A stretch of DNA of 64,000 bases from Bradyrhizobium centrolobii (GTDB lineage: Bacteria; Pseudomonadota; Alphaproteobacteria; Rhizobiales; Xanthobacteraceae), in contig NZ_LUUB01000066.1 of NCBI RefSeq assembly GCF_001641635.1, positions 1-64,000 of the forward strand, read 5' to 3'. Within the stretch, counting starts at the first letter, position 1. The number at the start of each line of letters is the position of its first letter. Position numbers and translations under genes: made by a program. The notes under the pieces are model-generated. The model saw nothing but the letters and a program-made list of their open reading frames with translations, did not search any database and had not been told where the DNA came from. Below, piece after piece: positions 84 to 4,099 of the stretch.

Positions 84-192
84 TAGGGCGTGTACTCATC
101 ACTCAAGCGCTTAATTTCGGCGGCCCAGATGTCCGCTCATCCCTCAACAGCGGCACAGGAGCGGACATCGCCGGAGGTCGCCGGTGGGCCAG
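84..192. repeat. Conserved left end, copy A
   Basis: Matches 1540-1648 with few differences. It includes the terminal repeat, an AAGCGCTT palindrome, and a subterminal hairpin whose arms ATGTCCGCTC (129-138) and GAGCGGACAT (159-168) are perfect. Similarity stops after 192. Confidence 0.75.
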
Positions 193-321
193 TGCACTCT
201 ACCTATTCCATCGCCTCGCCGGCGCAATGCGCTCCGCTGACTGACTCATGCCGAGACTGAACTCGCCCATAGGCCAGCTTCTTGGTGCTATACTGCTTGC
301 GCCTTACATAGGAGGTCCCCT

Positions 322-1301
322 ATGACAAACCGCACAGTCGTTGCTGCGCTAGTTGGGTTGGGTTTTGCCTTGCCCGTCGTTGCACTGGCGCAAGACCAGC
401 CCCTCGAGGAACAGCTCGTCAATGCAATGAACAAGGTATTCGGGGTACATCCCGGATTTCGTGCCAATCATGCTAAAGGCATCGTGGTCGAGGGTAGTTT
501 CAAAGCATCTCCGGAAGCCGCAGAGCTAAGCCGAGCGGCCCTTTTCAACGGCGGCACGATCCCCGTGACGGTGCGCTTCTCGGATTCCACGGGGTACCGA
601 ACCTGCCGGATGGGTCCAAAGACGCCAACCCGCACGGGATGGCTGTGAAGTTCCATCTGCCGGACGGCAGCGACACCGACATTGTGATCAATTCCCTCAA
701 GTTCTTCCCTGTGTCTACGGGCGAAGAGTTTCGCGACCTGCTATTGGCGCTGTCGGAGAGCCCGCCGAGTGCTACCAAGCCGACGAAATCCGAACAGTTC
801 GCGGCGAGCCACCCCTCGGTTCCTGCCGCCTTCAGCACCGTGGCCACGCCAGACAGCTTCGCCGACGAAGAATACTTCGGCATTGATGCGTTCGTTTTCG
901 TCAACAAAGCGGGTGAGAGGCAGGCGGTCCGTTATCAGATGCTGCCCGAGAACGTCGTTCATCTGGATAAGTCTGACGCTGCGAAACGAGCACCGGACTT
1001 CTTGATGGAAGAGTTGCCAGAACGCCTGAAGCGGGGACCGGTGATTTTTCACTACAAGGCACAACTCGCTGCGGCGGACGATTCCACGAAGGATCCGGCG
1101 AAGCCCTGGCCCGACAATCGTAAGGTGGTAGAGCTTGGAGTGCTGACGATCGACAGGGCAGCAGCGAACAGTGTCGAGGCCCAGAAAAGATTACTGTTTC
1201 TACCGGGACAGCTCACCGATGGAATCGAGCAGTCCGATGATCCGCTGATTGACATCCGCGGTGCCGCATATGCTGTTTCGTTCTCGCGGCGCAATCCCTG
1301 A
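322..1301 (+). pseudogene. Catalase-family peroxidase (SrpA-like), one frameshift
   Basis: Small catalase-related haem peroxidases of about 330 residues are periplasmic and use a distal His and a proximal Tyr. Here a strong ribosome site AGGAGGT (310-316) precedes ATG 322, followed by a signal peptide ending near ALAQ. The distal-His region HAKG (His50) is present. The frame breaks at the G run 591-594: four G bases where five would let the reading pass into the second frame, which carries on to 1301. The C-terminal RGAAY fits the proximal R-x-x-x-Y haem motif. Joined, the product would be about 326 residues, normal for the family. It is the only cargo of element A. Either a one-base deletion has killed it or the G run was misread; apart from that base it looks intact. 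Confidence 0.75.
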
Positions 1302-1441
1302 CCATCAGGGTATGCCGTGGTCAGAACCATGGAAGTAACGTCGTCACGTTCGCGTTCGGGGTACCCGTTCTGTGCCTGTCCTCTCCAATGATGCAGGATC
1401 TTCATCAAGAACTAATGTTCGCCTGAGCAAACCAATCGACT

Positions 1442-1533
1442 GCTCTGGATCACTAGCAGCAATGCTCCAACCGATCAGAAGATTTCCGCTCGGCCCCCAG
1501 GAGCCGACATTGTCTTATGAGTACACGCCCTAA
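1442..1533. repeat. Conserved right end, copy A
   Basis: Matches 3073-3164 almost base for base, from GCAGCAATGCTCCAACCGAT to the terminal ATGAGTACACGCCCTAA. Upstream of 1442 the two elements diverge completely. Confidence 0.75.
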
Positions 1534-1558
1534 ACTAGCTAGGGGCGTGTACTCATAA
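1515..1558. repeat. Junction palindrome between elements A and B
   Basis: TTATGAGTACACGCCC (1515-1530) and GGGCGTGTACTCATAA (1543-1558) are perfect 16-bp inverted arms around a 12-base spacer. They are the right end of A and left end of B facing each other. It could extrude as a cruciform and would be the joint of any co-transposition. Confidence 0.8.
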
Positions 1559-1648
1559 CTCAAGCGCTTAATTTGGGCGGCCCAGATGTCCGCTCATCCT
1601 CAACAGCGGTACAAAAGCAGACATTGCCGGGGGTCGCCGATGGGCCAG
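1540..1648. repeat. Conserved left end, copy B
   Basis: Counterpart of 84-192. The subterminal hairpin is kept with one mismatch in the stem (AGCAGACAT instead of AGCGGACAT). Confidence 0.75.
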
Positions 1649-1722
1649 AAGCGGTGACGCGCCGGTCATACCGTCTTCCAAATTGCAACGTAATCCATAG
1701 AAATGCGACCACTGCGTCCTGA

Positions 1723-2964
1723 TTACGGCTTCGACGCGACACTAGTGTCGGTTGGCAAATCAGGAACGACTTGCTTTATCCAATCCGTAAATGCCGAGAC
1801 GCGAGTATAGACGCCATACTTATTTGGCTTTGCGCAATCTTCACCCCAACTCGTAATTCCAATCTGATACTTGCGGCCCGCTTTATCAACGGCGGCGAGC
1901 GGTCCTCCGCTTGACCCCTGGCAAGAGTCAACTCCGCCAGCTGCAAAGCCAGCACATACGTTGCTAGTCGGATCAATATCCTTACTCATACTCGCCAAGC
2001 ACACCTTGTCTTCAACAATGGGAATTTGGGCTTCTAAGAAAGCAAAGTCCTTTGAGGCTATTGCTGCAACCATCACTACAGTCCCAGGGGCTGGGTCAGT
2101 TGCTTTCGCTCGCGATAGCGTCACGTATGGGGGCGGCAATGACTCTTTTAGGTCGAGGATAGCGATGTTGTTCCGCGGTACTGGATCCGTCGAGAACGAC
2201 GGATGCACAAAAACCTTCGCAACCTGTACCTCTTTTTTGGTTCCCTCTGCGTTTGCAAGCACTATCGAAACCGCAGGGGTTGACCCGTTAAAGCCAGAAA
2301 CGCAGTGGGCAACCGTTAGTACCGTGTGCGGACCAATTACCGTGCCCTGACAAAAGAGCGTGGCAACGGGAGCTCCGGTCAATTTTAACCCAACTAACCA
2401 AGGCCAAGCCACGCCAGAGTTTAGGGTTCCGCCGATCACCGGAGGACGCGGCTCAGATGTAGTTCCTACCTGGGGGGCGGCATCGGGATTATTCTTGAGG
2501 TACGCACTGATTTTCGCTGCATAGTCCGGCAACAAGCCAGCGTCGACCAGGAATTTAAGATTGTCTCGTACCGTTTGGGTTTTCGGACTTTCAACAAACT
2601 TTTTTATGAGATCAGCCTGAAGCGCCTGCTTTGCGGCTTGCGCTGCCGCCTCTGCTTTGGCGGTCTCGGCCCTTGCGGCGAGCTGTGCCTTGGTACCTTC
2701 AAGCTCAACGTTTGCAGATGCGGTGAGATGATTTGAGATAATTGTACTCATGACGGTGATGAAACCACCCACGATCGCGAGGGTGAATGGGTTGGCAAGC
2801 AACTCTTTCCATTCTTTGTCTCGAGCGCCCGCCAGTTCTTCACGTTTCAGCCGAAACTCTATCGCGGCTTTCTTCCGGTCGAACCGAAGGCGCTCCCAAT
2901 CCAGCGCGAGCCTCTCCGTCTTAGTCTCCCTGTCGCCGCTCGTGTTGCTGGCTTCTTGCTCCAT
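1723..2964 (-). CDS. Membrane-anchored trypsin-like serine protease with coiled coil
   Basis: A 413-residue protein in three parts. Residues 1-58 are charged and helical (probably cytoplasmic). Residues 59-79 form one membrane segment (FTLAIVGGFITVM...). Residues 85-125 are an Ala/Lys/Glu-rich coiled-coil linker. From residue 176 a chymotrypsin-fold (S1A) domain begins at VIGG, matching the zymogen activation site IVGG. The catalytic triad is visible: His220 in TVAHC, Asp271 in NNIAILDL, Ser352 in CQGSSGGP. The usual Asp before the nucleophile is Ser351. Asp346 in DSCQG sits where trypsin keeps its specificity Asp, suggesting cleavage after Arg or Lys. Paired Cys residues suggest an oxidising, periplasmic location. 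It is the sole cargo of element B. Substrate and role are unknown; a defence or sensing role is speculation. Confidence 0.85.
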   Translation of the reverse strand: MEQEASNTSGDRETKTERLALDWERLRFDRKKAAIEFRLKREELAGARDKEWKELLANPFTLAIVGGFITVMSTIISNHLTASANVELEGTKAQLAARAETAKAEAAAQAAKQALQADLIKKFVESPKTQTVRDNLKFLVDAGLLPDYAAKISAYLKNNPDAAPQVGTTSEPRPPVIGGTLNSGVAWPWLVGLKLTGAPVATLFCQGTVIGPHTVLTVAHCVSGFNGSTPAVSIVLANAEGTKKEVQVAKVFVHPSFSTDPVPRNNIAILDLKESLPPPYVTLSRAKATDPAPGTVVMVAAIASKDFAFLEAQIPIVEDKVCLASMSKDIDPTSNVCAGFAAGGVDSCQGSSGGPLAAVDKAGRKYQIGITSWGEDCAKPNKYGVYTRVSAFTDWIKQVVPDLPTDTSVASKP

Positions 2965-3072
2965 CGCAGGTCATCCCAAGGTGCGGATAACAAATCTTGG
3001 TCGAAGATAGGACCCAGTTCAACTACCGCTTTGAGCGCACCTCAAGCTCAATTCGATGTCGGCAGAAAATCC

Positions 3073-3164
3073 GCTGCGGGTCACTAGCAGCAATGCTCCA
3101 ACCGATCAGAGGATTTCCGCTCGACCCTCAGGAGCCGACATTGTCTTATCAGTACACGCCCTAA
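3073..3164. repeat. Conserved right end, copy B
   Basis: Counterpart of 1442-1533, ending at CGCCCTAA where the AEC gene's stop codon begins on the opposite strand. Confidence 0.75.
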
Positions 3165-4099
3165 TTCAACCCCGCCACGATCACCACCACCACCACCGGT
3201 AACGTCGCCGCCGCCAGCAGCGTGCCCAGCGCAACCGCTCCCGACACCGGGTTCACCAGCCGCTGATACTGAACCGCAAAGATATACGCGTTCGCACCGG
3301 TCGGCATCGCCGCGAACAGCACGACCACGCCGGCCGCTAGCGGCGGCAGGTCCAAGAGCTTTGCCAGCAGGAAGGCGGCCGCCGGCATCGCCAGCTGTTT
3401 TAGCGCGCACATGACGACGATGCCGAGCTTCTCGCCCTTGACCTCGAAGCGGAACAGATTGATGCCGAGCGCGATCAGCGCTGCGGGCGATCCCGCCTGC
3501 GCGAGTAGCTCGATCGTCCTGTCGACGACGGGATTGAGGCCAAAGCCGGTGAAGCGCCAGACGAGGCCGAAGCCGATCGCCAGCATGATCGGGTTGCGCG
3601 AAAGATCCAGCAGCACCGGCAGAATGATCGACAGGGCCGAGCCCGTCTGCTTGCGACCGGTCCATTCCATTTGCAGCGTGCCGCAGAGCCAGAGCAGCGG
3701 CGTGTTCACCGACAGGATCAGCGCCATCGGCCCCGCCGCCTCGTTTCCCAGCGCCGAGAGCGTGAGCGGAATGCCGAGCATCACGATGTTGCCGTAGACC
3801 GACCCGATCGCGAAGACCACGCCGTCCTCACGGTCCTCGCGCAGCAGGGCCGACAGCGCCAGCGCCGCGATCCAGGTGATCGCCAGCGCCCCGTAATAGG
3901 CGCCCCACATCCGGAAGGCGCTCAGGTGCGGGAATTCCGAGACGACGATGGTGCGGAACAGCAGGGCCGGGATGGCAATGCTGAAGGCGAATTCGGAAAT
4001 GCCCTTGTGCGCGGTCTCGGAGACGAAGCGAAACAGCACCGCCGCATAGCCGGCCGCGATCAGGGCAAAGACCGGCGCGACGATCAACACGGTGGCCAT
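3161..4099 (-). CDS. AEC-family transporter (auxin efflux carrier / malonate permease type)
   Basis: A 312-residue inner-membrane carrier of about ten hydrophobic segments, the usual size for the bacterial AEC family (MleP, MdcF and relatives), which export small organic acids or amino-acid derivatives. The N-terminus TVLIVAPVFALIAAGYAAV and the central GNIVMLGIPL fit the family pattern. The substrate cannot be read from the sequence. The TAG stop is read from bases 3163-3161, which belong to the end of element B, so the element borders the last codon without changing the protein. No partner gene is close upstream. Confidence 0.85.
   Translation of the reverse strand: MATVLIVAPVFALIAAGYAAVLFRFVSETAHKGISEFAFSIAIPALLFRTIVVSEFPHLSAFRMWGAYYGALAITWIAALALSALLREDREDGVVFAIGSVYGNIVMLGIPLTLSALGNEAAGPMALILSVNTPLLWLCGTLQMEWTGRKQTGSALSIILPVLLDLSRNPIMLAIGFGLVWRFTGFGLNPVVDRTIELLAQAGSPAALIALGINLFRFEVKGEKLGIVVMCALKQLAMPAAAFLLAKLLDLPPLAAGVVVLFAAMPTGANAYIFAVQYQRLVNPVSGAVALGTLLAAATLPVVVVVIVAGLN

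Follow-up and report, generated by a model that had tools for sequence, protein, structure and literature searches.

The left end of a 64,000-nucleotide stretch of Bradyrhizobium centrolobii DNA (contig NZ_LUUB01000066.1, positions 1 to 64,000; hereafter the window) carries two tandem units, A and B, with common ends and different genes between them. This raises the question of what such units are, what moves them, and how one pair of ends comes to enclose different cargo. We conclude that A and B very probably belong to a single family of cassettes with ends of the IS5 type of insertion sequence (IS). The explanation that we consider probable for the whole is that these cassettes have IS427-like ends, are mobilised in trans, and exchange their cargo through the end modules. 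The features on which the argument turns are as follows (L, G and C numbers denote loci, genomes and contigs).

86-1530, + strand: unit A, cassette with catalase-like cargo, from boundary reading and end comparison
84-85: TA preceding unit A, within ACTAGCTA at 78-85
86-192, + strand: unit A end 1, terminal repeat and end-1 module, with the inverted repeat GATGTCCGCT...AGCGGACATC
322-1301, + strand: catalase-like cargo gene of A (PF00199) in two frames (322-648; 639-1301), frameshifted
1442-1530, - strand: unit A end 2, end-2 module and terminal repeat
1531-1541: A/B junction TAAACTAGCTA, with TA at 1531-1532 and 1540-1541
1542-3161, + strand: unit B, cassette with trypsin-like cargo, from boundary reading and end comparison
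1542-1648, + strand: unit B end 1, with one extra G ahead of the repeat
1723-2964, - strand: trypsin-like protease (PF00089), 413 amino acids, cargo of B
3073-3161, - strand: unit B end 2, repeat with one mismatch
3162-3163: TA following unit B, within the stop codon of a permease gene (3161-4099)
1-67: right end of an adjoining IS5-type IS, which borders unit A without belonging to it

A and B lie head to tail, each opening with the terminal sequence GGGCGTGTACTCAT and closing with its reverse complement. An earlier, sequence-only reading of this locus had described twin units with common ends, unrelated centres and no transposase, and this description held. The left ends are 96% identical over 86-142 against 1543-1599 and 86% over 142-192 against 1598-1648; the right ends (1442-1533 against 3073-3164) are 92% identical; and the inverted repeats agree at 87% (84-106 against 1510-1532) and 83% (84-106 against 3141-3163). 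Between the centres there are matches of merely 14-36 nt at 72-93%, which we read as chance, and neither unit matches the cognate transposase identified below at E <= 1. The common inverted repeat that had been recognised also stood, but the boundaries had to be moved: the true edge is GGGCG...CGCCC between TA dinucleotides, at 84-85 and 1531-1532 for A and at 1540-1541 and 3162-3163 for B. The sequence ACTAGC does flank A on both sides, as had been noticed; it is, however, part of ACTAGCTA, which precedes both left ends (78-85 and 1534-1541). Because flanks like CTAGCTA are found at other elements too (L135, L346), this flanking may reflect target choice. The protease gene of B, on the strand opposite to the cargo of A, was confirmed, and the gene in A is indeed catalase-like but is not intact: both of its parts align to one frame of a Microvirga homologue (639-1301 above the PF00199 cut-off, 322-648 below it), and it is therefore frameshifted or misassembled. 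Because A and B are each other's best match at the left ends and again at the right ends, among 209 element ends, we regard the pair as a single chassis that exists with two different cargos.

The further suggestion of a family of non-autonomous carriers with varied cargo was borne out across Bradyrhizobium: the ends are not confined to this locus, the central genes vary, and the ends are not the parts of one disrupted IS. We collected 43 elements with convergent ends, A and B included, which hold no cognate transposase and mostly unrelated genes. They were selected by one exact repeat and a partner with at most three mismatches, among the matches listed, and are not a random sample; some are kin, L121 and L123 sharing a site, L173 and L200 a strain, and L174 and L209 their cargo. 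The pairs L254, L255, L257, L262, L263, L269, L271, L272, L274, L276 and L160 were left out. The 41 elements beyond A and B measure 596-7607 bp (median 1414); TA flanks 25 of them on both sides and 14 on one, and CTA...TAG borders 17. The repeat as an exact 14-mer occurs in 148 of 265 genomes of the genus, and a reversed-letter control in 3 of the genomes listed. In a second collection of 123 distinct exact 16-mers, taken among the matches listed and with hits in distant records retained in the count, a convergent partner within 8 kb and three mismatches lay on the inside for 33 and on the outside for one; same-direction partners numbered one inside and one outside. Paired elements also occur outside Bradyrhizobium, in Tardiphaga (L166), and in four assemblies labelled Alphaproteobacteria, Rhizobiales or bacterium (L192, L197, L229, L231). 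The hits to the pattern in distant records, among them Clostridia, Bacteroidota and Chloroflexota, look like chance.

The cargo is diverse. Pfam, run on 43 cargo or transposase proteins (a subset of the frames), assigned cargo to families that include adenylate cyclase, Cache domain, isochorismatase, MgtC, TauE, Na+/H+ antiporter, LysR regulator, class I (Trp/Tyr) tRNA synthetase, cytochrome c, periplasmic binding protein, acetyltransferase, PsiE, amidohydrolase, GFA enzyme, caspase-like peptidase, and ankyrin and TPR proteins; it gave no family for eight cassette proteins. Some cargo recurs, namely an ABC-type substrate-binding protein in L227 and L229 and the same amidohydrolase in L174 and L209, and several cassettes hold more than one gene (L124, L128, L177, L209). 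Related frames that, as read, look like Crp/Fnr-type regulators are the cargo of separate cassettes (L445:7250-8035, L059:3798-4577, L209:5191-5934). The window's own genome (G000) has further candidate cassettes, recognised by their end modules, for example on C131 (L448), C130 (L450), C79 (L445) and C29 (L064). On C79, several end-1 and end-2 modules stand in a row (L063:5497-11950), perhaps another cassette tandem; on C38, two facing terminal repeats only 7 bp apart form a minimal pair of 35 bp (L060:4849-4883, C38:74848-74882).

Behind the terminal repeat lie two distinct modules, which give the cassettes a polarity. A profile search, in which the end types were defined on the very ends that were then classified, assigned 35 ends to end 1 and 33 to end 2. 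One end of each kind is present in 28 of the 43 elements, a single recognised module in nine and none in five; in L138, one end matches both module types and the other matches end 2. Apart from L138, none of the 43 has two modules of one kind. A sequence-only model of the left end made at least 929 matches at E <= 0.001 in 50 genomes (median 13, present in 49), with at most 71 candidates scored per genome under stricter filters. Many of these matches, in G025 for example, have no terminal repeat beside them; they may be relics or be of another nature.

What would move such cassettes? A transposase of IS5 or IS630 type had been proposed, and it is the first of these that gained support, since an IS5-family transposase lies inside larger elements with such ends, whereas matches to the IS630-type domain PF13358 in 40 genomes gave no convergent repeat pair (at most three mismatches) within loci of about 3.4 kb, which longer elements would escape. 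Single repeat hits were seen at two IS630-type loci (L308, L285), and an inverted-repeat scan found none with the cassette repeat. The cognate transposase is assigned to the IS5 family by NCBIfam, at 303 bits against a cut-off of 110. In this PF13340 subgroup of the family, a repeat of about GG[G/A]CG[T/C]GGACTCAT[A/T]A stands directly after the gene. It differs from that of the cassettes by a single mismatch in L318 and L321 and by more elsewhere. The sequence-only reading had suggested looking for a full IS with the same repeat; a plain IS of 841 bp, L309, has repeats of the kind just described.

Of the 20 transposase loci fetched, six could be delimited by an accepted matching repeat on either side of the gene. 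These larger elements measure 1.9-4.7 kb, with other genes ahead of the transposase; CTA and TAG border five of them, and L357 is flanked by CA and TA. In L339 and L347 the order is end 1, cargo, end 2, transposase, with E-values for end 1 of 4e-18 and 1e-17, and for end 2, directly before the transposase gene, of 3e-10 and 5e-7; the cargo includes a shikimate dehydrogenase and an alpha/beta hydrolase, respectively. Forty of the 43 cassettes gave no transposase match at E <= 1. The other three (L159, L192, L231) carry its last 29-34 codons beside one repeat, and these tails tie the cassette ends directly to the IS5-family transposase. At E <= 1e-60 this transposase is matched in 23 of 50 genomes, by one to four frequently truncated copies apiece. 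In the window's genome there are two copies of nearly full length (C54, C71) and a fragment (C13); the copy on C54 lies within a 2354-bp element and has one stop inside the aligned stretch. In the best copies one open frame of 264-298 amino acids encodes the whole transposase and, because there are not two overlapping frames, we label it IS427-like. The mover is probably of this IS5-family type, with a repeat of about GGGCG[T/C]G[T/G]ACTCATAA, a CTAG target and duplication of TA, and the cassette ends appear to derive from, and are probably recognised by, such a transposase.

Other candidates fared less well. The IS that adjoins A at 1-67 has its own repeat GGGTCTGTACC at its opposite end on C77 (C77:1-842) and a PF13340 match at C77:90-305; its repeat fits less well, and we rejected it as the mover. 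An IS1182-type transposase in L122 seems to have repeats of its own and was taken as nested. L132 carries two copies of a frame that we take to be an IS110-type transposase.

Evidence bearing on cargo exchange comes from four sites at which two genomes have both flanks and 48-106 bp of each element end in common, around cargo without detectable similarity (compared by blastn alone, at the nucleotide level, and with the all-flank comparison made on one strand). L121 (G062) and L123 (G086) agree at 93% over 1.6 kb on the left and 97.6% over 1.5 kb on the right, stretches that take in 96 and 97 bp of the element ends. Their centres are dissimilar, a cyclase gene in one and a gene for a 524-residue protein in the other, and the site is empty in two relatives (G040, G261). 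Comparison of all flanks among the loci added three more such pairs, L154/L202, L144/L083 and L232/L263, in which similarity stops at 48, 86 and 106 bp inside the left end and at 92, 88 and 95 bp inside the right end, respectively. Two further pairs, L209/L241 and L155/L120, have one flank and one end in common, with interiors that are unlike as far as covered; the end matches of L155/L120 rank second among the 209 ends. L205 is an empty site for L173, and comparison of L155 with the window's genome (L059) suggests another, with about 100 unmatched bases. L131/L149 was not counted as a same-site pair, its common left flank being repeated in other genomes as well.

These observations suggest the following course of events. 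An IS5-family transposase would insert a cassette into CTAG; a second cassette would come to lie in tandem with the resident one, either because it inserts close by or because the end modules recombine; and recombination between the ends, now direct repeats, would afterwards delete one of the two cargos. The A/B tandem of the window would be an intermediate, holding two cargo versions of one chassis. It seems to us likely that the cassettes are mobilised in trans by a transposase encoded elsewhere in the genome; for homologous recombination inside the end modules of about 110 bp as the means of cargo exchange, we put the chances at even. We infer the order of events, the enzyme, the movement and any host benefit. 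Integron gene cassettes are genes exchanged between standard ends at a fixed site. The cassettes described here resemble them in outcome, but have inverted transposon ends and TA duplication. A bolder reading, in our view a little less likely than not, is that each insertion serves as a fixed docking site for which the end modules are universal adaptors. Any gene enclosed by the modules could then be swapped in by recombination, with tandem pairs as intermediates in an integron-like but integrase-free exchange of genes.

Several observations weigh against the proposed exchange and its link to the transposase. The transposase-side repeat is at least one base off the cassette repeat, and 14 of the 20 transposase loci have no accepted left repeat within 5 kb; in L342, L343, L344 and L346, end-1 matches stand 5.7-9.5 kb ahead of the transposase and may be the left ends of these elements. 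The full order of parts is found in two of the six larger elements only: in L340 the transposase is preceded by end 2, but an inverted IS end occupies the position of end 1, and in L345, L353 and L357 end 1 is weak and end 2 is not clear. In 15 of the 43 cassettes the module, or its type, is unclear at one end or at both. In four of five measures, covariation in the inverted repeat of end 1 did not exceed that of shuffles, the exception being pairing (17 of 500 shuffles), and we therefore rejected a hairpin function for it. Finally, L259 has the right flank of L144 but an unrelated end, and A and B could be two insertions at adjacent CTAG sites.

The last two points, together with the preference for CTAG, favour a reading in which transposition does everything: cassettes of one subfamily would insert independently into preferred CTAG targets, with no exchange of cargo. 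We consider this unlikely, because, among the 209 ends, both ends of the first-named element find their best match in the partner in all four same-site pairs, and for L121/L123 and L144/L083 this holds in both directions. In L154/L202 and L232/L263, one end ranks only third in one direction, which counts against exchange at face value; it is as expected if the exchange points lie within the modules, and other causes are possible. Differential loss, in which an ancestor (a longer element or a tandem) held both cargos and lineages deleted different parts, with nothing brought in, is in our view similarly improbable. The tandem in the window, the multi-gene cassettes and the widely different cargo lengths at one site (3861 against 933 bp in L144/L083) all accord with it, and it overlaps with the last step of the mechanism we favour, but it would need an ancestor with two cargos at each of the four sites, where none was seen. 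It is scarcely credible that the common ends are intergenic repeats or terminators flanking genes by chance, with no tie to transposition, for although many end-1 matches lack the terminal repeat and the module holds an inverted repeat, convergent pairing prevails by 33 to 1, the ends are polar, TA lies on both sides, some sites are empty in relatives, and a transposase is found between the same ends.

How do these cassettes compare with known elements? With IS-type inverted repeats, no transposase gene of their own IS, a passenger gene and a target duplication, they are, judged by structure, mobile insertion cassettes (MICs) in kind. PMC2266710 and PMC3913671 describe MIC231, of the Bacillus cereus group, as a transposase-less cassette with a passenger gene between the inverted repeats of IS231, and larger IS231 relatives in which additional DNA separates the left repeat from the transposase gene. 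The likeness extends to all three features: a passenger between IS-type repeats, no transposase, and larger transposase-bearing relatives. MIC231, however, is of the IS4 family with duplications of 10-12 bp, and its movement in trans was demonstrated, as told in PMC3913671, whereas the Bradyrhizobium cassettes have IS5-family ends with TA duplication and a mobilisation in trans that is proposed from sequence. They also differ from MIC231 in having two polar end modules of about 110 bp and in being numerous throughout one genus. That the cargo of a single cassette can change has a precedent in mic-qnrD and the pVERM mic element of Proteeae plasmids, which, according to PMC3913671, have the same repeats and backbone, different cassette content and a 2-bp duplication. 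That case concerns one plasmid family with 24-bp repeats, CA duplication and, in that account, no cognate transposase found; in Bradyrhizobium there are four chromosomal sites and a cognate transposase. MICs are listed alongside miniature inverted-repeat transposable elements and transporter IS in PMC3129680; the six larger elements fit the transporter IS as given there, IS with passenger genes unrelated to transposition, whereas A, B and the 41 other cassettes have no cognate transposase. For the IS427 group, PMC3281130 (on Paracoccus) gives 2-bp duplications, lengths of 832-865 bp and mostly two overlapping frames. The IS5-family transposase, the 2-bp duplication and the 841 bp of L309 agree with this; the cargo-bearing elements of 1.9-4.7 kb and the single-frame transposase depart from it. 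We found no account of the repeat, or of such a Bradyrhizobium family, in open-licence PMC papers, and what appears to be new is an IS5-type, cargo-replacing version of the MIC.

If this is correct, the IS231/MIC231 design extends to the IS5 family, and part of the variation in gene content between genomes of Bradyrhizobium, bacteria of soil and root nodules, would be traceable to one carrier family, which is apt to be overlooked in annotation for want of a transposase. Cassette-borne genes can be sought by means of the repeat and the two modules, and the gain and change of cargo by cassettes would become testable at specific sites.

The protease of B has a match at E <= 1e-40 in one of 256 other genomes (41% over the protease domain), and its G+C content is 53.5%, against 63.6% for window positions 3201-64000. 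In a search of a plasmid collection, the catalase cargo alone was matched, at 65-73%; the 3.9 kb surrounding the one homologue examined contained no terminal repeat at up to 4 mismatches. Another contig of the window's genome, C77, might have been taken for a second independent copy of the tandem. We rejected this because C77:773-40616 repeats the window's contig (C66:1-39844) without a mismatch, with the adjoining IS in front. The same IS also starts or ends other contigs of this genome, and the overlap is therefore probably assembly redundancy.

Unit B abuts the permease gene (3161-4099, - strand) at its stop codon. In L406 the uninserted sequence CTAATTCAA is found at the end of this gene, and in L405 it stands at a partial duplicate; the terminal repeat is absent, at up to three mismatches, from all 20 of the relatives' permease loci. 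Partial copies of the 3' part of the permease gene, downstream of it or alone, are present at 16 of these 20 loci (L405-L424). The locus looks like a gene-gathering hotspot that operates without the cassette repeat: single genes often lie between the partial permease copies, such as one that reads as TenA-like in L408 and L423.

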